Virus record (IMG/VR): IMGVR_UViG_3300005290_000010
Coordinates: 1-37,871 of that record
Length of the DNA: 37,871 bases
Reading direction: 5' to 3' (one strand)
From: a virus
Shown: positions 8,378-19,752 of the stretch, in pieces
How positions within the stretch are numbered: the first letter of the stretch is position 1
Layout: each line of letters opens with the position of its first letter
Notes under the pieces: generated by a model
Seen by the model: only the letters and a program-made list of their open reading frames with translations
What the model was told of the DNA's origin: nothing
Databases searched by the model: none
Position numbers and translations under genes: made by a program

Positions 8378-8887
8378 ATGAAAGGATCTATTCTTTATGT
8401 TATGTCCCGACACTGGAATGGTTATGTTCAGTGTCGAATAGGTGAAACTAATAATCTTGCGAGGCGTGCCATAACGGAAAATGCCGATAGTGCCTGGGAA
8501 CTTATGCGCGGCGGTAAGGTGGAGATAAGAATACTTGAAAGTATTTTGTCGGCTAGGTTTGGACTCCCACAAGAGGTTTGGACAGGACCAACTGAGTTTA
8601 CTCAACTCGTACTTGATGCTATATGGGGTCAGATAGAAGATAATTGGAGTAATGGTAGAGAAGCTATAATGCGTATAGGTAGTGATCCTCTACATAAACC
8701 TTCTTGGGAAAACAACTGGAGAGGAAACACACTCGATAGGTTAGCAACAAACAACGCATTGAGATGGATAAAGCATTGTGATGATAACAGTTGTAAACAA
8801 CGAAAGAGATGCAAGCTGTGGAATGATGGCACCTTAGAAGGGTGCAAGGTTCCACGCGATCTGGTTGCTACAGGAATGTTCTCATGA
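8378..8887 (+). CDS. GIY-YIG-like nuclease with Cys-rich tail (putative)
   Basis: The first 35 residues (ILYVM, then RIGETNNLARR) match the GIY...YIG plus N-x-x-R spacing of the GIY-YIG nuclease fold, and a Glu in ILESIL could be the metal-binding acid. The C-terminal part has four cysteines (HCDDNSCKQRKRC and a later C), suggesting a zinc-binding DNA-contact module. Total 169 residues. The gene is AT-rich compared with the phage (8641-8700 has 22 G/C of 60) and coupled by ATGA to a methyltransferase. A homing endonuclease or a restriction-type partner of that methyltransferase are both possible. Confidence 0.4.
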   Translation: MKGSILYVMSRHWNGYVQCRIGETNNLARRAITENADSAWELMRGGKVEIRILESILSARFGLPQEVWTGPTEFTQLVLDAIWGQIEDNWSNGREAIMRIGSDPLHKPSWENNWRGNTLDRLATNNALRWIKHCDDNSCKQRKRCKLWNDGTLEGCKVPRDLVATGMFS

Positions 8888-10119
8888 CATCAGGCATCTT
8901 CCACTCCGTAGCTATAGACAGTATAACTGTCATTGAAGAGCTTAGGCAGCGCAAGAAGAAATCTCCCGATCATATACCAAACCTTGCTCAGTCCATCCAG
9001 ACACATGGACTCATTCATCCAATAGTTATAACTCGTGACCATATTTTGGTAGCAGGTGAGTCTCGTTTAACAGCAGTAAGAGACCATCTCGGTTGGACTA
9101 ACATTCCAGTACAATATCAAGATGAAGTTGAGGAGTGGGTACTATGTGGAATAGAGCTTGAAGAAAATATAGGCCGGGTAGATCTGGATTGGAAAGATAA
9201 AACTAGAGCCATAGCTAGGTATCATGCACTGAGGAAGGCTGCTGATCCTACCTGGAACCAAACCAAGACAGCCGCAGCCATAACTCTATCTAAAGCGACT
9301 GTTACGGAGCATCTTCAGGTAGCAGCTAACTTGAGTAACCCGACGATAGCAAGTGCTACTACCTTTGATACTGCACGCAACACAGCAAAGAGGATAGAAG
9401 AGCTTGCATTCCAAGACACTATGCACACAATTCGCGACGCGAACTATGCGCATCAGTCACCCATCCAAATAGCCGATTTCCATGATTGGGCACCAGTATA
9501 CAACGGTCCTAAGTTTACCATTATACACTGTGACTTTCCTTATGGCATCAATGCAGACGATCATCAAGGCCAAAATTCTCAGCTTCATGCGGAGTACGAC
9601 GACGATCCAGACATTTATTGGGAACTCCTTGGCACTTTGACGCTTTACCTAGACCGCTTTTGTGCAGACCATGCCCATCTATTCTTCTGGTTCTCCCCGA
9701 AATACCATCACCAAACATGGGAAGCTCTTCAACAATTGGAGGGCTTCAAGTTCGACCCTTATCCGCTGGTCTGGTTAAGAGGTGAGAATAGTGGAATCGC
9801 TCCAGACACTGCGCGCCGCCCACGAAGAATTTATGAAACAGCGTTCTTTGGATGGCGAGGGGACCGAAAGATTATCCATACTAAAGCAAACGCATTCACA
9901 GCCCCACCAGACAGAACGCGACACCCCCACGAGAAGTCCGTCGTTGCCCTCCAACACTTCTTTGAGATGTGTGTAGATGGAAACACCCGCCTCTTCGACC
10001 CTACCTGTGGAAGCGGCTCCGCCCTCCGAGCTGCCCGTGCCCTCGGAGCCCGCGACGTCCTCGGCCTCGAGTCCAACCCCGAATACGCAGACGCTGCACG
10101 ACGCGCCCTTGACTCCTGA
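8884..10119 (+). CDS. ParB-domain / DNA methyltransferase fusion
   Basis: Predicted DNA-modifying enzyme of 411 residues. Residues 8-95 are a ParB/Srx-like nuclease-fold domain (GLIHPIVI, AGESRLTAV at 57-65), followed by a KorB-like helix-turn-helix region (124-150). From about 205 a SAM-dependent methyltransferase shows catalytic DFPYG (217-221, variant of DPPY) and then HPHEKSVVAL and SAM-binding FDPTCGSGS (371-379). This order is beta-class, so adenine-N6 or cytosine-N4. It may protect phage DNA from restriction. The first two thirds are AT-rich and the last part GC-rich, suggesting a recombinant origin. The ATG at 8884 forms an ATGA overlap. Confidence 0.85.
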   Translation: MTSGIFHSVAIDSITVIEELRQRKKKSPDHIPNLAQSIQTHGLIHPIVITRDHILVAGESRLTAVRDHLGWTNIPVQYQDEVEEWVLCGIELEENIGRVDLDWKDKTRAIARYHALRKAADPTWNQTKTAAAITLSKATVTEHLQVAANLSNPTIASATTFDTARNTAKRIEELAFQDTMHTIRDANYAHQSPIQIADFHDWAPVYNGPKFTIIHCDFPYGINADDHQGQNSQLHAEYDDDPDIYWELLGTLTLYLDRFCADHAHLFFWFSPKYHHQTWEALQQLEGFKFDPYPLVWLRGENSGIAPDTARRPRRIYETAFFGWRGDRKIIHTKANAFTAPPDRTRHPHEKSVVALQHFFEMCVDGNTRLFDPTCGSGSALRAARALGARDVLGLESNPEYADAARRALDS

Positions 10120-10264
10120 TCGCGTCGTCGTCCGGTGTGGCGAACAAATAGAGGTCATCACCTACACGCAAGAGGGCTTCAGTATGGTAGCCGTCGAGCC
10201 GCGCCGCGCCATCCAGCTTGCCAACGCCCTCATCCGTTACGCTCTTGAGAAGACCGAGCCGTGA
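10109..10264 (+). CDS. Unknown 51-residue protein between methyltransferase and polymerase genes
   Basis: The frame is open further upstream to an ATG at 9977, but that part lies wholly over the methyltransferase and reads as Pro/Ser-rich shadow sequence. The only plausible closer start is TTG 10109, without a clear ribosome-binding site. The product alternates strands (DRVVVRCGEQIEVITYT) and ends with a helix (RRAIQLANALIRYALEK). Its stop overlaps the next start as GTGA. Function unknown. Confidence 0.45.
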   Translation: MTPDRVVVRCGEQIEVITYTQEGFSMVAVEPRRAIQLANALIRYALEKTEP

Positions 10265-11322
10265 CCGTACGCATGGTCCTCTTGGGCGAGGCATGGGGGG
10301 CTAACGAGGCCGAGGCCCGCGCCCCTTTTGTCGGGGCCAGCGGTGCCCAACTAATCAAACTTCTGGCGGAAGCGGGCATCGTACCCAACGGGCGTGACCT
10401 CTCTGCCGCTCTTTGGACCCGCAACTACCGCCGCCGCGACGCCCTCCTTGCCGAACAGGGCATTCGCCTCACCAACGTCTTCAACTTCCAGCCCCCAGCT
10501 AACCGCATCGACGCGCTCTGCGGCCCTCGACATGACGGGCTTCCGCCCATTCGAGCGGGCAAGTACCTTCGAGCCGAGTTCTACCCGGAGCTCGATCGGC
10601 TTCGCGCCGAGCTGGCTGAGTGGCAGCCGAACATCCTGGTCGGCCTTGGAGCCACCGCTCTGTGGTTCGCTACCGGCGCAGGCCAGATCACGCGCAAGCG
10701 TGGCACCATCAGTGACACACCATACGGCAAATTCCTCGCCACATTTCATCCGGCCTACCTGCTGCGCGGCGCAGCGAACATGCGCCCCATCGTCGTTGCT
10801 GACCTAACGAAAGCTCAGCGTGCATCCGCAACACCGGAAGTGTCTCGACCGGAGCGCACGATCTACATCCCTGAGAACCTCGACGACCTCGCCGATGCCT
10901 TCCGACAGATCGAACGGTCACGGCTCTTGGCCGTGGACATCGAGACGGCTAAGGGACAGATCACCTGCATCGGTTTCGCATGGGAGCCAGGACAAGCCCT
11001 CGTCATACCGGTTTGGGACAACACTCAGCCCAACAATTCCTATTGGAGTGAAGTGGATGAGCCTCTCGTGTGGGAATGGGTTCGACGAATTTGTGGACTG
11101 CCAGTGCCTAAAGTCTTTCAAAACGGACTTTATGACCTCCACTATATCTGGCGAGGATACGGTATTACAGTCGCGAATTGCCTTCATGATACAATGCTAC
11201 TCCATCACGCCCTCCAACCTGAAGTGCAGAAGAGCCTTGGATTTCTTGGCTCGCTTTACAGCGACGAACCAGCATGGAAACAGATGCGACACCGTACCAC
11301 CCTGAAGAGGGAAGATGTATGA
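10261..11322 (+). CDS. Uracil-DNA glycosylase-like domain fused to a partial 3'-5' exonuclease domain
   Basis: Residues 5-190 resemble family 4-type UDG: motif GEAWGANEAEARAPFVG (catalytic-position E16), TNVFNFQPPANR, and ATFHPAYLLR (H163). The cysteines that hold the 4Fe-4S cluster in family 4 are absent. Residues 220-353 are the start of a family A polymerase proofreading domain, with Exo I DIE (D226, E228) and Exo II NGLYD (N288, D292). The protein stops after SDEPAWKQ..., before Exo III, which is encoded in the gene at 11644. It likely acts in replication, pairing uracil recognition with proofreading; that is inference. GTG start in a GTGA overlap; ATG 10273 is an alternative. Confidence 0.8.
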   Translation: MTVRMVLLGEAWGANEAEARAPFVGASGAQLIKLLAEAGIVPNGRDLSAALWTRNYRRRDALLAEQGIRLTNVFNFQPPANRIDALCGPRHDGLPPIRAGKYLRAEFYPELDRLRAELAEWQPNILVGLGATALWFATGAGQITRKRGTISDTPYGKFLATFHPAYLLRGAANMRPIVVADLTKAQRASATPEVSRPERTIYIPENLDDLADAFRQIERSRLLAVDIETAKGQITCIGFAWEPGQALVIPVWDNTQPNNSYWSEVDEPLVWEWVRRICGLPVPKVFQNGLYDLHYIWRGYGITVANCLHDTMLLHHALQPEVQKSLGFLGSLYSDEPAWKQMRHRTTLKREDV

Positions 11323-11672
11323 CCGACTTCCGCCGCGTAATCATCGAGTCTCCTTTCCGCGCTCCCTCCCGTCGCTTAGCCCGGCAGAACATCAGTTATT
11401 CCCTCGCATCCATGCGGGACTCGATAAATCGCGGCGAAGCCCCCTTCCTATCGCACCGTCTGTATCCCGGTGCTCTCGACGACAACATCCTCATCGAGCG
11501 GCTCCTTGGCATCGACCTGGGTTATGCATGGTGGCCAGCTGCCGAGGCCATCTGTTTCTATTGCGACCTTGGCTGGTCATCGGGAATGCTCGACGCCAAA
11601 ATGCGTGCCAAAACACAGGGCAAGAAAATAGAGGAGCGTTACCTTGCGAAAGATCGCCACCAGGACCATTGA
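11319..11672 (+). CDS. DUF7768-like protein inserted between polymerase parts
   Basis: A 117-residue protein starting at ATGA with the preceding gene and AGAGGGAAG upstream. The pattern RVIIESPF...NISYSLASMRDS...GEAPFLSHRLYPG...LGIDLGYAWWPAA...YCDLGWSSGM matches the phage and bacterial family I know as DUF7768, which has a nucleoside 2-deoxyribosyltransferase-like look. Enzymatic activity is not established. It sits exactly between the two halves of the exonuclease-polymerase, overlapping the second half by 29 bases. It may process nucleotides or have arrived as the element that split the polymerase. Confidence 0.65.
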   Translation: MTDFRRVIIESPFRAPSRRLARQNISYSLASMRDSINRGEAPFLSHRLYPGALDDNILIERLLGIDLGYAWWPAAEAICFYCDLGWSSGMLDAKMRAKTQGKKIEERYLAKDRHQDH

Positions 11673-13140
11673 TCCAGAGCGGTTATCACACAACGACGCC
11701 CTCTGGGTCTATAACGGGCTCGATTGCTGCATAACGCACGAGGTTCTGGGCGCCCTTTTGCCCCAAGTAACCTCGGTTACGGGGGCAACCTACCGTTTCA
11801 GCCGCGACCTGCAAGGCCCGATCCTCGAGATGAATACCCGCGGCCTCCGTGTCGATCTGTGGCGGCGCGACGAGGTACTAGCTGACTATCGTACCAAGAT
11901 GGTGTTGCTGGAGCAACAACTAGACGGCATCGTGCGCGACGGGATAGGCTTCGCAGAGTGGCGTGCCACTTCATCGTGGCGGTCCAACAAGGATATGTGC
12001 TCCCTCCTATACGATAAGCTGGGGCTTCCGATACAGTGGAAGCGGGGCGGCACCGGCGAGCGCTCTCGCACCGCGGACCGCGACGCCCTCGAGGCCCTCG
12101 AATGCTACATGCTGGCCGAGCCAATCATCCGACATGTCTTCGCCCTGCGGGACTTGGGGAAGAAGGTATCCTTTCTTCAGACAGCGGTCGATCCCGATGG
12201 TCGTCTTCGTACCTCCTTCAACATCGCCGGCACCACAACAGGCCGCCTTGCATCGTCCTATTCGGATTTCGGCACCGGAACCAACCTTCAGAACGTTGAG
12301 AACCTCCTTCGCTCCGTCTTCGTGGCCGATCCCGGTATGAAATTCTGTAACATCGACCTAGAGCAGGGGGACTCCCGTGGTGTCGGCGCGATCCATTGGC
12401 AGCTCTTCCGTGACAGCCGCTACCTCGATGCTTGTGAAAGCGGCGATTTGCATACTCATGTGGCGCGGGGAGCCTTCCGTCACCTCCCTTGGAGTGGTGA
12501 TGCTGCCGCCGACCGTGCATTGGCAGGTGGTAATTTCTACCGTTCCTTCTCGTACCGTGATGCGGCGAAGCGTTTGGGACATGGCACCAATTACCAGGGA
12601 CAAGCCGATAAGATGTCTCGAGCCACCCACATCCCGCTGACCCACATCAAGACCTTCCAGACTAATTACCTCGAACAGTTTCCCGCCTTTCCACTGTGGT
12701 GGCGATGGGTCCAAGAGGCCCTGCGCGATACCCGCCAGATCACCACGCTCTTGGGTCGGCAACGCCACTTCCTCGGTGACTGGCGCGACGCTGAAACGAT
12801 CCGCCAGGCTGTCGCTTACGAACCCCAATCAATCACAGCGGACACAATCGACCGCGGCCTGCTTGCGCTTTGGCGGGCCAACCGCGTCCAACTCCTGCTT
12901 CAGGTCCACGATTCGGTGCTCTTCCAATTTCCCGAGCGAGACGAGGCCGAAGTGGTGCCATGGGCTATCGCCCAGATCGAACAAACCATCCCGCTCCGCG
13001 GGAACCGCGCCTTCGTGATTCCCGGAGACGCGAAGGTAGGATGGAATTGGTCTGACTCTTCATCGGACCAAGATGCGCTCCACAAGTGGAGCGACCAGAC
13101 GCGCCCGCAGCGACGCACACGCAATCCCTCTTTTCCCTGA
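11644..13140 (+). CDS. Family A DNA polymerase, C-terminal part with Exo III motif
   Basis: Phage replicative DNA polymerase lacking the N-terminal exonuclease half. It starts at TTG 11644, seven bases after GAGGAG (11631-11636); no earlier ATG exists. YNGLD (Y23, D27) is the YxxxD Exo III motif. The polymerase domain shows motif A NIDLEQGDSRG (D238), motif B R305-x3-K309 leading to NYQG (Y317) and motif C QVHDS (D423). All catalytic carboxylates are present, so it should be active. The missing Exo I and II motifs are in the gene at 10261, so proofreading would need the two proteins to associate. Confidence 0.9.
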   Translation: MRKIATRTIDPERLSHNDALWVYNGLDCCITHEVLGALLPQVTSVTGATYRFSRDLQGPILEMNTRGLRVDLWRRDEVLADYRTKMVLLEQQLDGIVRDGIGFAEWRATSSWRSNKDMCSLLYDKLGLPIQWKRGGTGERSRTADRDALEALECYMLAEPIIRHVFALRDLGKKVSFLQTAVDPDGRLRTSFNIAGTTTGRLASSYSDFGTGTNLQNVENLLRSVFVADPGMKFCNIDLEQGDSRGVGAIHWQLFRDSRYLDACESGDLHTHVARGAFRHLPWSGDAAADRALAGGNFYRSFSYRDAAKRLGHGTNYQGQADKMSRATHIPLTHIKTFQTNYLEQFPAFPLWWRWVQEALRDTRQITTLLGRQRHFLGDWRDAETIRQAVAYEPQSITADTIDRGLLALWRANRVQLLLQVHDSVLFQFPERDEAEVVPWAIAQIEQTIPLRGNRAFVIPGDAKVGWNWSDSSSDQDALHKWSDQTRPQRRTRNPSFP

Positions 13141-14418: not shown

Positions 14419-14752
14419 CCGTCCTGTGCATCTCCTGTCGCACCTTATTGAGCTGACTCTTCTCCATATCTTCGGCATCTATCAATGAGTTGCGCGCTCC
14501 CTCGATGGCGCGCAACAGCTCGTCAAGCTTTACATGGATCGCCATAGTGTCACGCGACTGTGTGGCCTGGATCAGGAACACCATCAGGAAGGTGACGATG
14601 GTAGTCCCAGTGTTGATGACGAGTTGCCAGGTGTCGCTGAACTCGAAGAGTGGGCCGGTCGTGGCCCAAATGAGGACGATCGCGAGGGCTACAAAGAACG
14701 CCCACTGACTCCCGACGGCGCGCTCGACCCGCCTTGCGAGGTCGTCGAACAT
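14390..14752 (-). CDS. Low-affinity iron permease family (PF04120-like) membrane protein
   Basis: A 120-residue protein with two membrane helices (WAFFVALAIVLIWATTGPLF and a second from TWQLVINTG to VFLIQ) followed by a cytoplasmic coiled coil. The segment GPLFEFSDTWQLVINTGTT and the TQSRDT...KLDEL motif are hallmarks of the bacterial family annotated as low-affinity iron permease. ATG 14752 lies in a TGATG overlap with the ejection protein gene. As the last late gene it could serve as a holin-like or superinfection protein instead of iron transport. The family name is secure; the function in a phage is not. Confidence 0.75.
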   Translation of the reverse strand: MFDDLARRVERAVGSQWAFFVALAIVLIWATTGPLFEFSDTWQLVINTGTTIVTFLMVFLIQATQSRDTMAIHVKLDELLRAIEGARNSLIDAEDMEKSQLNKVRQEMHRTATQSPEALS

Positions 14753-17700
14753 CACTTGAGCAACTTCATCTCGTTCAGATACTTGCGGGCGGTCAGGTCG
14801 TGCTCTCCCTGCCCTAACGATCCCTGCACCACCATCTTACGGCCTATGTCTCGAGCTTTCTTAATCTGCTCCCCGATCATCTTTCGTTGAATACCCTCCG
14901 GGAAGTTAGAGAACTGCGGCGTCACCAGCACATCAAGAAACTTCTTGGCCAGTTGGCCTGATATCTGTGCGTACTCCAGGTACTGGTCATCGGTGAGGCC
15001 GATCCCATCTATCTTACGCTGCGGCGGCGCATTGTTCATCCCCAGACGGAACATCGCATTGTCCACCGGGTCGCCCTGGTTAGGTGGTCTCCACCGGATT
15101 TGGCCTACTCCCTGCCGAGGGATCGGCTGGCCCCAGCGATCAATCTTAGGAGGCAATGTCTCTCGGTAGTTAGGCACCTTCGCCAGCATCGCATCGAGCC
15201 ATGTCCGCGTTTCCCGCTCGAATGGGTCCATAGCCACCGCGATTTGTCCAAAGAAGTTGGGAATCAGGGACGACACAGTACTTTCTATGTATGATTGCTG
15301 GGAGGTTTCTGGCGAGTAGATCGCTTCAATCATGTTGGAGAGGCCACGGATCGCCAACTTATCGAAGAGATTGCGCTGTATGGCGAGCGACAATCGCATC
15401 GCTGTCTCGTTCGAGTACTTCTCTTTCTCGTCGATGTCCATATCAGTGAAGTTTTGATGCCACAACCGCTGGGTCAGCTCCATGCCATCCGTTGCGAGCA
15501 TCAAGATAGATGCCCAGGGCTCGAAGGCTTGATAAGAGAAGCTGCCCCACTTTGTATTCATTGCGTACGGCTGTATGCCAACGTTCCGTTGCGTCTCCCG
15601 CTCACCAGCATTGGTTGGCCCGCCATTGGTCAGGAAGCCCTCATAGAAAGCAAACGCTGCTCCCACGAGGACCATATTCCCAATGGCTTGTCGCGAAAAA
15701 GCCATGTTCTGAACCATCGGCCCCTGTGAACCATCCAACTTAAGTCGTTGTTCTCGCGACAGGACGCCAAGCAGGGAGCGCTCGGCAATAGCATATTTGA
15801 AGAGGTTAATCCCGGTTCGCACAACAGGGAAGATGAAAGACATCATCGGGTGGACGTTGACCGCTGCTTGCAAAGAGCGGCCGTACGGACCCAACTCGTT
15901 GGTAAAGGTTTGGTAGCGTTTGTGCTGGCGAACCACAGCCAACATGCTCTCGGTCGGGTTGTTGATGTAGGCGGTCTGGCGCGCAGCTACGTCGTCCTCG
16001 CCAATATATCCCTCGCGCTCAGCATCGCGTCGCGCTACCCGACCAGCCACTCGATGCAACATATCCATCTCGGCGATGCCCTTAAAGAACTCGTCACCCG
16101 TCGCCAGCAACTGGAAGCCTGGATAGCGAAGGGTGTGACCGCCGATAGGCAGCTGTGCTCCGATGTTTTCCCCGAACCAGGTTCCCTCGAGGAATGGGAT
16201 AGGGAGGCGGTAGGTAGGGATCGCAGGTTCGTGTTCTATAGGCCGCACTTCCTCGGAGCGGAACGCATAACCCTCGTCGATGAGGGCGCGGCCAGCCCCA
16301 ACCAATCCCTTTATTGCCCCTGCTTTCAGCGACATAACAGACGTTAACGCCTCTCCTCTATAAAAATCTTGGCCGCGCGCCAGTGAGATACCTCTAGCCA
16401 CCGCCAGCTCCGGAACGTTCATGATCGCCGGCCCCAGATTACCGACAAGGTTGATTCCCTGCGTTACCATACCCGAGAACAGTCCAGATAACCATCCCTC
16501 CATAAAGCCGCGCCCGATTTTGGTGGCTATTCCTGAGGTATTCTGCATCAACTTGGCGGCTTGCGACCTATCCTGAACCCGGAGGCCAAGCGATGCCTCT
16601 CGTGCCAGTTCCTCCGGCGACATCTTAATCGTCTTTTGGAAGAACTCCAGCGCCTCATCCAGCGTTTTGAGGTGTTTCGCGAACTGCAACAGTCGGAACG
16701 CCTCACCCATATTCGAGGCGGTATGGACAATGGTGTCTGTGATGAGGCGGAACCGTTCCTTCTCTATAGCGTAATCAGCAATAGCTTGGACGATTTCAGG
16801 ACTAGTCGCCTTCGCCTCGTCGCGGGACCAGCCTCTTCCGCCTGTCAACGTATCAACTCGTTGCTGTGCAGCACGCACTCGTTCTTGCTGCTTCGATGCA
16901 ATCTCAATGGCAGCTAACACCTGTTTAGGGGTGAATACCGCTCCGATGGTATTTCCGTCGATGTCTCGTGGCGCATATCCGAACTCCCGAGACACATTCA
17001 TCTTCTCGGTTTCGGTCAGCGGCCGCTTGGTGTCTGGCCCTGCCAGCGTTCGCACCGCTTCCGCAACATCTCCCTCATCCATTATGTTCTCGGGAATCGG
17101 TGCTCCGTCAGCGTCTACAAAGGTTCGAGGTTCTGGCTCTCCAACTGGCGTCGCCTTCGCCGCCTTACTTGTATCTCGGCTGACGCCGACCTCTGGAGCC
17201 CCCGCACCTTCTCCACCTCCTCCGGTGTCAGCCCCGGTTTCTTCAAATAATCCTGATAATACGTCATCTCGCGGAGGGCCGCGTCGAGCATCTCTTCGTC
17301 CGGCATCTATCTCTTCTCCCACTTCCGCCGCCGCCTGAGCGCGTTCACCCGCCATCCGATTGGCGGTCCCGATCGACTCATCCAGCCCAACCGTAGCCGC
17401 AGCCGCTTCATGTGCCTCTGCGAGGCCCTGGCGATCCGGTGCTATGATTGCCTCGCGTTCCTTGGACGCCAAGAGGCGACCGTAGACGCCACGCATCGCA
17501 TCGCCCATCTGCGCCGCCCCAGGTATCCCCAGCGCAGACTGGTAGATGTCTGTAAGCCACGCCGAGAACTTCCTAAACACCCCGTCGAGACTCTTAGAGG
17601 GCGCCCGTCCTTCGAGTAAGTAGCGCTCGAAGCCCCGCGCGAACTTTTCCTGGAACGCCGAGTATGCCTTCTTGTACGCCTTATCAGACATGCCCTCCTT

Positions 17701-19752
17701 CTCGGGCATCTTATAGGCGTCTTTGACCGTCTCCCAATCCGCTTTCAGCGAGTCGGGGGCCTCCGGGTGCTCCACGAGGCCCTTCATGTCTTCGAGCCAT
17801 CCGTGGGCCAGCTCGTGCGGCAGGGTGGAGGGATCGGCTCTCTGCGTCAAATCGATAATGTTCCGCATCCGACCTATGATGGTGCGGCCCTGGATAGTCG
17901 TGCCAATATCTGTTGGGCGGATACGTGGGGCCATCTTCTGGTACAGTTGTTCCGCTGTACCCAACTTGCCCTCGAACTTGTCCGCGAGGGTGCGATAGTA
18001 TGCCTGGACCAGACGCCCGACGGCCTGCGCCTCTTCGGCAGGACGCCCTGCCACTTCAGCTTTCTTCGCCGCATCCACCGCAATGCTCGTTGTCCTTTGG
18101 TGAAAGATAGTTACCTCGCCATCCTTCACATCGAGCACGCTCAGCTTATGTCCATCCTCCGTAACCAGTCGATTGCCCTGCACTTCCTTGATCGGCACTT
18201 CCTGGCCGTTGACGAGGGCCGTGACCTCCTTGTTCTCGCCGAGCGCCTTCTCGACTTTGGAGGTCATCTCTTTGTTGGCGACTAGGGCTTCGCCAACGTC
18301 TGCGGGCTTGGGAGCTATTTTTTCGGGAGGCGTGGGGCGGCGGTACATATCCTGGACAAAGGCTTGCAGGTCCTCTGGGCTCTTGATCTTTCCCGCCTCG
18401 AACTCCGGCCGCGCCCGCACGAGGACTGGATCGCGCATTCCAGCATAAGTATCTTTTCCCTCCGTTAGTGCTTGGAATAGCCCTTTGTAGAGGTTTTCTG
18501 ACATACCTCTCGCCATTCCGCCTAGATCTGCTAGGCCCTCAGCGACTGCGGGCGCAGGTACGCGCAGCGCTTCGGATACAGCTGGCAGTGATGGTGCTGT
18601 CTCGGTAGGGGCGGCACGTGCTTCTGGTGAGAACAAAGTCTCGGCGGGGGGCTCAGGCAGAGTGTAGGGATCGCGCGCTGGGATGTCAGGTGGCGGCGGT
18701 ACGGTGACTTCAGGCGGTGGTGTAGTATCAACCGTGATACCCTCTGTCGGCGGTGCCCCTTCCTTCCCAATCTCACTGCCCCTCTTATACGCCTCCAGCA
18801 CTTGCGGGAAGTGCTCGTCCATCCGATGCGCAATTTCCAGCTGTTCCTTGGACAGCTGGGTCATCTCACGCCGGATGCCGCGCATCAGGGCTTCCGCCTC
18901 GTCGGTCTTGCCCGCCGCACGCAGCTCCCGGACGTTCTCCGGCTCGTTCCGTGTAAGCTCGTTAAGCTCGTCGAGGCGACCGGCGATGAAGTCGCTTCGA
19001 GTCACGTCGGCCTCGTACCGCTGCATCACCTCCGGTGCTACGGCCCGCGCCGCCTCATGAATATCCCTCGGCGGCGGCGGCGGTTCCACCACTCCATTCT
19101 CAACATTCTCCTTCCACGCATCGAGCGGTGGCACGCCCTCAATAGCCCCAGCTTCAGCCGCCTTATCCACATTAAGGATGGCCCGCTCCGGCACCCCACG
19201 AGTCCACTCCTTGATCTGGGCCATGCGTGAGGGAATGCCACCGGGATATCCGGCCATATGCCCAGCCGGGAACGCCTCGATCATCCCGAACACGTCTCGC
19301 GGGATGCCCTTCTCAACAGCGACATCTCCTACCGCGTAGAGAATGCCCTGTGGGAGCCGCGCCACCGCGTCCAGCGCCGCCGGTATCCCATAAACACCAG
19401 TTCGTGCCGCGAACTGAGCGGCCTTACCGACGTTTGTCTCTGCATCCTTCAAGAACGGCTCGAGCCCCGCATCCTTTATATACTGTTGATCCTCCCCACT
19501 TAATCCAAGCCCTCCCTCATAAGCACGCAGGAAACCTTTACCCATCCTCCCCAGTTCGTCGAACTGCTGCGAGAACCAGTCCTTCATACCCACGACCGCA
19601 CCTTTCGGCGGCGCCAGGAGGTCCTCGGTAGTCGGAACCGGCTTGAGCAGGTCTTCAGTGTAGATCGGTGGAGTTGGATCGCGGCCGTGGAGGGCGACAC
19701 CAAGAGCACTCTGCGTTGGCGGGAGCGCGACGTTTTCGGGAAGCTCGGACAT
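14752..19752 (-). CDS. Giant internal virion (ejection) protein with HExxH zincin-like domain
   Basis: A 1666-residue protein, probably carried in the capsid and ejected with the DNA, by analogy with the large gp15/gp16-type proteins of podoviruses. It has Pro/Glu-rich linkers (about residues 215-235 and 345-385) and a zincin-like segment with HELAH (646-650) and a downstream E709 in FERYLLEGRAPS, a layout seen in metallopeptidase domains of large polyvalent proteins. Two hydrophobic stretches further on (GWLSGLFSGMVTQGINLVG; GNMVLVGAAFAFYEGF) could insert in the host membrane. No transglycosylase motif was recognised. TAATG overlap with the upstream gene. Confidence 0.75.
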   Translation of the reverse strand: MSELPENVALPPTQSALGVALHGRDPTPPIYTEDLLKPVPTTEDLLAPPKGAVVGMKDWFSQQFDELGRMGKGFLRAYEGGLGLSGEDQQYIKDAGLEPFLKDAETNVGKAAQFAARTGVYGIPAALDAVARLPQGILYAVGDVAVEKGIPRDVFGMIEAFPAGHMAGYPGGIPSRMAQIKEWTRGVPERAILNVDKAAEAGAIEGVPPLDAWKENVENGVVEPPPPPRDIHEAARAVAPEVMQRYEADVTRSDFIAGRLDELNELTRNEPENVRELRAAGKTDEAEALMRGIRREMTQLSKEQLEIAHRMDEHFPQVLEAYKRGSEIGKEGAPPTEGITVDTTPPPEVTVPPPPDIPARDPYTLPEPPAETLFSPEARAAPTETAPSLPAVSEALRVPAPAVAEGLADLGGMARGMSENLYKGLFQALTEGKDTYAGMRDPVLVRARPEFEAGKIKSPEDLQAFVQDMYRRPTPPEKIAPKPADVGEALVANKEMTSKVEKALGENKEVTALVNGQEVPIKEVQGNRLVTEDGHKLSVLDVKDGEVTIFHQRTTSIAVDAAKKAEVAGRPAEEAQAVGRLVQAYYRTLADKFEGKLGTAEQLYQKMAPRIRPTDIGTTIQGRTIIGRMRNIIDLTQRADPSTLPHELAHGWLEDMKGLVEHPEAPDSLKADWETVKDAYKMPEKEGMSDKAYKKAYSAFQEKFARGFERYLLEGRAPSKSLDGVFRKFSAWLTDIYQSALGIPGAAQMGDAMRGVYGRLLASKEREAIIAPDRQGLAEAHEAAAATVGLDESIGTANRMAGERAQAAAEVGEEIDAGRRDARRGPPRDDVLSGLFEETGADTGGGGEGAGAPEVGVSRDTSKAAKATPVGEPEPRTFVDADGAPIPENIMDEGDVAEAVRTLAGPDTKRPLTETEKMNVSREFGYAPRDIDGNTIGAVFTPKQVLAAIEIASKQQERVRAAQQRVDTLTGGRGWSRDEAKATSPEIVQAIADYAIEKERFRLITDTIVHTASNMGEAFRLLQFAKHLKTLDEALEFFQKTIKMSPEELAREASLGLRVQDRSQAAKLMQNTSGIATKIGRGFMEGWLSGLFSGMVTQGINLVGNLGPAIMNVPELAVARGISLARGQDFYRGEALTSVMSLKAGAIKGLVGAGRALIDEGYAFRSEEVRPIEHEPAIPTYRLPIPFLEGTWFGENIGAQLPIGGHTLRYPGFQLLATGDEFFKGIAEMDMLHRVAGRVARRDAEREGYIGEDDVAARQTAYINNPTESMLAVVRQHKRYQTFTNELGPYGRSLQAAVNVHPMMSFIFPVVRTGINLFKYAIAERSLLGVLSREQRLKLDGSQGPMVQNMAFSRQAIGNMVLVGAAFAFYEGFLTNGGPTNAGERETQRNVGIQPYAMNTKWGSFSYQAFEPWASILMLATDGMELTQRLWHQNFTDMDIDEKEKYSNETAMRLSLAIQRNLFDKLAIRGLSNMIEAIYSPETSQQSYIESTVSSLIPNFFGQIAVAMDPFERETRTWLDAMLAKVPNYRETLPPKIDRWGQPIPRQGVGQIRWRPPNQGDPVDNAMFRLGMNNAPPQRKIDGIGLTDDQYLEYAQISGQLAKKFLDVLVTPQFSNFPEGIQRKMIGEQIKKARDIGRKMVVQGSLGQGEHDLTARKYLNEMKLLK

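Follow-up and report, generated by a model that had tools for sequence, protein, structure and literature searches.

In the IMG/VR virus record IMGVR_UViG_3300005290_000010, of which a stretch of 37,871 nt was analysed (this whole stretch, part of a 39.9-kb virus record, is referred to as the window), two genes, g1 and g3, flank a small gene of the DUF7768 family and very probably encode a naturally split, likely obligate two-subunit family A replicative DNA polymerase, whose proofreading site would be composed of residues from both polypeptides. That the two products could work as one enzyme had been raised in a first-pass annotation of the window, and it stands as the best reading, directly supported by the structure of the genes, the conservation of their motifs, selection measured as the ratio of nonsynonymous to synonymous substitution rates (dN/dS), the junction between the halves, a phylogeny with a single origin of the split and the fold predicted for a read-through chain of one relative (locus L105). 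The features concerned are the following, with conservation counted over 134 distinct loci.

10261 to 11322, + strand: g1, polymerase subunit 1, GTG start, 353 aa
10936 to 10944, + strand: Exo I motif DxE (D226, E228 of g1), invariant, 134/134 loci
11122 to 11136, + strand: Exo II motif NxxxD (N288, D292 of g1), invariant, 134/134 loci
11305 to 11312, + strand: AAGAGGGA, Shine-Dalgarno-like sequence for the next gene, within the last g1 codons (..TLKREDV)
11319 to 11672, + strand: DUF7768 gene, passenger, ATG start, 117 aa
11631 to 11636, + strand: GAGGAG, Shine-Dalgarno sequence of g3, within the DUF7768 gene, read from the sequence
11644 to 13140, + strand: g3, polymerase subunit 2, TTG start, 498 aa
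11710 to 11724, + strand: Exo III motif YxxxD (Y23, D27 of g3), D in 134/134 and Y in 132/134 loci
11977 to 13050, + strand: family A palm, fingers and thumb with motifs A (D238), B (R305, K309) and C (H422, D423), from Pfam and motif counts

The product of g1 contains a UDG domain (PF03167, 1e-14, residues 3-175) N-terminal to an exonuclease domain (DNA_pol_A_exo1, PF01612, 8e-7, residues 204-333), as in the UDG-fused phage PolA proteins of phrog_17, and its Foldseek matches are the phiLo family A polymerase (9qhs), family 4 UDG/UdgX and the Klenow exonuclease. The product of g3 begins with the last exonuclease helix, which carries Exo III, and continues into a complete family A polymerase domain (DNA_pol_A, PF00476, 2e-28, residues 112-469) with the D of motif A, the R and K of motif B and the HD of motif C, motifs that are intact across the 134 loci; its sequence matches in the PDB are Taq, Klenow and Bst. 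In the PHROGs database the two products match adjacent stretches (550-788 and 803-1233) of one family, phrog_17 DNA polymerase. All three DEDDy motifs are present (134/134, 134/134 and 132-134/134 loci), but they are distributed over two proteins, Exo I and Exo II on g1 and Exo III on g3, whereas all fused members hold them on one polypeptide. The first-pass annotation had placed Exo I and Exo II in the first gene, Exo III and the polymerase domain in a third gene with a TTG start and GAGGAG, and a complete DUF7768 gene overlapping both; each of these placements is borne out by the reading frames and Pfam, with the residue numbering exact. The N-terminal UDG-like domain (window 10261-10785), which had escaped that annotation, holds a single Cys and therefore probably lacks the Fe-S cluster seen in family 4 UDG; the activity of the domain is uncertain.

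No nucleotide-level relatives of the window were found in the phage collection, and protein searches were therefore needed. A first scan of IMG/VR with g3 returned 31 loci of 93-40% identity, and g1 and g3 were separate open reading frames (ORFs) in every locus where both were visible. The set was extended by profile scans with the g3 and g1 alignments and by a single scan of GTDB contigs; from each scan the 80 best loci were taken as relatives, and loci were called by matching every stop-to-stop ORF to a g3 profile and a profile of the exonuclease part. This yielded 191 split loci (135 distinct) together with nine loci that have a single fused ORF; these nine are all distant (polymerase profile 167-254 bits, against at least 415 in the clade members listed alongside). 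Leaving aside Vibrio phage VS-ABTNL-3, where an unrelated fission lies inside the polymerase domain, 134 distinct loci remain, comprising IMG/VR contigs, two contigs of metagenome-assembled genomes, Caulobacter phage Kuura and the window. The halves lie in separate genes in 134/134 of these, in a clade that has diverged to less than 40% identity, and no fused member of the split clade was found among the loci scanned. Since 134 loci, including that of the cultured phage Kuura, share the same residues, the arrangement is neither chance nor an artefact of a single assembly. The first-pass annotation had proposed looking for an intact form in relatives without the DUF7768 gene; fused forms do exist among distant relatives, and the split was also found without DUF7768, which had not been noted before.

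When the window was compared with its close relatives, dN/dS was 0.04-0.15 in the UDG part and the exonuclease part of g1; in g3 it was 0.03-0.10 over the Exo III segment and 0.07-0.09 over the polymerase part. That Exo III stays nearly invariant on a protein of its own makes sense if g3 completes g1. In the mechanism proposed here, g1 would give a UDG-exonuclease subunit with the metal ligands D226, E228 and D292, and g3, through its N-terminal strand and helix, would fill out the exonuclease fold and contribute Y23 and D27, the fission having presumably added a new start and the short IIxT strand. Both proteins would be made from one co-oriented cluster, their translation probably coupled in part through the g1 tail, and the chains would assemble after translation into one UDG-exonuclease-polymerase particle with a composite proofreading site.

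The junction between the halves is well defined. The fused homologue ctMlz233 has 17 residues between WK and the YN of Exo III, and Mel-JY34 is similar. In the split clade g1 ends 9-17 aa (usually 12-15) past the WK of its last helix, with the tail consensus T-I/L-K-K/R-D/E-D/E, and g3 starts 19-29 aa ahead of YN..D (measured in 132 of the 134 loci), typically as M-K/R-I-I-x-T; neither end depends on the size of the gap. As the fused homologues span only ~17 aa at this place, nothing is missing, and judging from these alignments ~20 residues were added at the fission and none lost. The earlier claim that no exonuclease sequence was lost is upheld by this comparison, and the predicted position of the junction in the loop before YxxxD agrees both with the alignment to fused homologues and with predicted disorder at the split point. 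As in the gp43A/B type of split, two genes jointly encode a complete enzyme and lack no essential segment.

In L105 the two genes lie in one frame, 24 nt apart, and reading the TGA as Trp yields an 828-aa chain. This chain was predicted as one UDG-exonuclease-Klenow fold, with a predicted local distance difference test (pLDDT) of 94 and a predicted template modelling score (pTM) of 0.90. Its structural alignment with Pol I/Klenow covers 659 columns (TMt 0.75), and that with phage G20c Pol I covers 741. The only region below pLDDT 50, residues 326-343, coincides with the split point and is predicted to be disordered. In the AlphaFold2 (AF2) model of g1 (pLDDT 90) the values are ~70-75 over residues 311-340 and lower beyond, and the residues from 311 on would be the part that contacts g3; the equivalent of 311-340 rises to ~83-97 in the L105 chain, which is another sequence and hence indicative only.

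Several points weigh against the two-subunit interpretation. Co-inheritance and selection mean that both genes are needed but say nothing on mutual binding, and we infer the binding of the products, the exonuclease activity and the translational coupling. The structural model is of a tethered chain of the relative L105 and not of the two chains of the window in complex, and the assembled fold is partly built in, because the L105 alignment included three fused homologues; it therefore indicates that the split site is structurally harmless and is not proof that the chains bind. With relatives limited to the best loci of each scan, rarer or more distant forms may be missed. Two loci (L064 and L070) have R in place of the Exo III Tyr (..VRNGID..) with the D kept, and proofreading may be weakened in this sub-lineage.

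The translation signals bear on how the genes are expressed. In the window the g1 stop and the DUF7768 start share an ATGA overlap, and the end of DUF7768 overlaps g3 by 29 nt. A Shine-Dalgarno-like motif occurs in the last codons of 98/134 g1 tails, compared with 9% of control windows, and AGG accounts for 56% of Arg codons in the last six codons of g1 but for 8% elsewhere in the exonuclease part; on the basis of these enrichments the g1 tail is at least partly the ribosome-binding site of whatever follows. A Shine-Dalgarno core 4-mer precedes the g3 start in 65/134 loci (16% of control windows).

On a tree of 80 representatives and seven fused homologues, the state split versus fused changes once (SH-aLRT 99), against ~14 changes for DUF7768 and five for the abutting state of g1 and g3. 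The rows of EPV3 and Tiera, which had been placed within the split clade by a branch 2.85 long and had 32-37% of columns filled, were dropped as unreliable, and fused and split forms separate cleanly once they are removed. On this phylogeny, a single fission between Exo II and Exo III took place in the lineage from which a large clade of phages descends.

What lies between the halves is highly variable. The distance from the g1 stop to the g3 start ranges from -4 to 1924 nt across the 134 loci, and reaches 5.1 kb in one further contig, G001 (L021), where g1 was found by a whole-contig search and the gap holds a DUF1937 gene and two long ORFs, of 697 and 785 aa, that match no Pfam family and are tail-fibre-like by eye. 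In nine loci (L120, L186, L081, L099, L196, L204, L206, L171 and L169) g1 and g3 abut, joined as ATGA, TAATG or TGATG or separated by at most 2 nt, and no gene intervenes; these cargo-free loci are nested in the tree, so that the first split may have been clean or may have carried an element. Elsewhere the gap is occupied by DUF7768 (a cluster in 31 loci, and the window), DUF1937-like (24) and KTSC (19) genes, HNH-type genes (cluster 3, 12 ORFs in 10 loci, with HNH_3 matches), MazG, a methyltransferase and many unique ORFs. L155 has a further HNH_3/zf-His_Me_endon ORF, and a weak LAGLIDADG_3 match was seen among the gap ORFs. One cargo ORF matches Acb1 (anti-CBASS). Recurrent gap genes, for example in L013, L014, L016 and the window, include MazG and the two nucleoside deoxyribosyltransferase-like families DUF7768 and DUF1937, and a link to nucleotide metabolism is possible. 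The middle gene of the window is a clear member of DUF7768 (PF24963, 7e-18, 65 bits against a gathering cutoff of 26) with PHROGs matches to phrog_24212 and phrog_355 nucleoside 2-deoxyribosyltransferase, and its dN/dS is 0.08-0.19. No PDB sequence match was found for its protein, and, in comparison with true nucleoside 2-deoxyribosyltransferases (NDT), the region of their catalytic Glu is not conserved. Among the DUF7768, DUF1937 and nucleoside 2-deoxyribosyltransferase-like proteins, it is regarded as a passenger and not as a part of the polymerase.

With regard to the agent of the fission, an HNH-type homing endonuclease may have made the original cut and mostly been lost later, leaving a permissive site, a scenario that is compatible with two subunits and to which we give somewhat less than even chances. 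The HNH-type cargo, the ORF of L155 and the LAGLIDADG_3 match are consistent with it, as is the preference of homing endonucleases for critical regions of phage polymerase and ribonucleotide reductase genes (PMC2988022); such endonucleases have split nrdA (Aeh1) and gene 60 (T4), the cause for gene 43 of phage 25 being unsettled (PMC2988022). The HNH genes are scattered on the tree, however, and could be later arrivals at an already split site, so that a homing-endonuclease origin is plausible but unproved.

As to function, we regard it as unlikely that the split is itself a switch, with g3 alone proofreading-deficient, g1 turning proofreading on, and fidelity set by stoichiometry and the passenger gene. 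It is very unlikely that proofreading has been lost, leaving g1 to act alone in repair as a UDG-like protein and g3 to polymerise without an exonuclease: Taq and some other family A polymerases do lack proofreading and g1 does carry a UDG-like domain, but exonuclease-dead polymerases lose such residues, whereas here they are near-invariant in both proteins over 134 loci at low dN/dS.

Slightly less credible again is the earlier proposal that the polymerase was split by an invading DUF7768 gene. In the window and in its nearest relatives (L001-L012) this gene does occupy the gap, mostly overlapping both neighbours, but it has no mobile-element feature, it changes ~14 times on a tree on which the split changes once, and L020 carries it downstream of g3 instead of in the gap. 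Because of this order, the cargo-free loci and the DUF1937, KTSC, HNH and other genes in the same gap, the cargo is secondary to the split; on this evidence DUF7768 is a later, replaceable passenger, and the gap a landing place for small genes. Least probable of all, with hardly any likelihood, is that the pieces are joined into one chain before or after translation (by group I intron, split intein, frameshift or read-through). Introns and inteins are indeed common in phage polymerase genes, and g3 is in the g1 frame in two inspected short-gap loci (L171 and L105), where stop read-through would join them. Against joining, g3 is out of frame with g1 in eight of the nine cargo-free loci, the gap varies from -4 to 1924 nt and contains complete genes that have starts of their own, no Rfam intron was found in the window region or 11 loci, and g1 and g3 end and start so near to WK and YN that there is no room for the halves of a DnaE-like split intein; the abutting forms and the 5.1-kb separation make splicing or read-through unlikely as a general mechanism.

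Around the split polymerase, the main upstream neighbour of g1 (window 8842-10119) is a fusion of ParB_N with an N6/N4 DNA methyltransferase (N6_N4_Mtase), which is kept beside the polymerase across the split clade, and the downstream neighbour of g3 is a DUF3987 primase-helicase. Further along, on the minus strand (window 14752-19752), lies a 1666-aa protein similar to an internal virion protein (phrog_6651, phrog_9880).

The closest known proteins are the fused UDG-exonuclease-polymerases of family A (phrog_17), such as those of ctMlz233 (MW202489), Microcystis phage Mel-JY34 (PP438425) and Pseudomonas phage PaBG (gp205), which share the domain order and motifs but are single ORFs, whereas the window has two, cut between Exo II and Exo III. 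A methyltransferase lies upstream in ctMlz233 and Mel-JY34 as in the window, and Mel-JY34 also has a DUF3987 protein downstream. The same split occurs in the podovirus Kuura (OQ067476; Kuura_029 and Kuura_026), the one cultured member found, at ~34% identity and with two unrelated small genes in the gap. Its UDG-exonuclease subunit, Kuura_029 (L033, 3225-4334), is labelled hypothetical protein in GenBank, and because of this label the proofreading half was overlooked; parts of the Kuura paper mention a single DNA polymerase (PMC9959647). Searches limited to open-access literature brought up no earlier description of a family A polymerase divided between Exo II and Exo III, nor of a clade in which such a division is fixed. 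Jumbo phages have a split PolIII (PMC7824862), and in MEP401-type (OM43) phages a family A polymerase is split inside the polymerase domain, with an intron suspected (PMC10580990). The MEP401-type phages and Vibrio phage vB_VspS_VS-ABTNL-3 likewise have two ORFs with a small ORF between, but there the exonuclease is intact and the fission is a separate event; in the latter (L038, MF497422, 1921-5055) a related UDG-family A polymerase has been split independently, around a 184-aa hypothetical gene.

A whole clade of mostly uncultured phages thus appears to replicate with a proofreading site common to two polypeptides, providing a clear example of a gene fission after which passengers have turned over repeatedly at one site, and a natural, testable system in which proofreading may switch on by adding a subunit. 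The T4-like gp43A/gp43B of Aeromonas phages 25 and 44RR likewise build a phage replicative polymerase from two genes; the split proteins of phage 25 co-purify and polymerise, and the split NrdA of Aeh1 works (PMC2988022). By analogy, the window system is most likely the family A counterpart of gp43A/gp43B, from which it differs in that the latter belong to family B and carry a seg endonuclease or an untranslated insert, whereas here a family A enzyme is split throughout a whole clade and the exonuclease site itself is divided.

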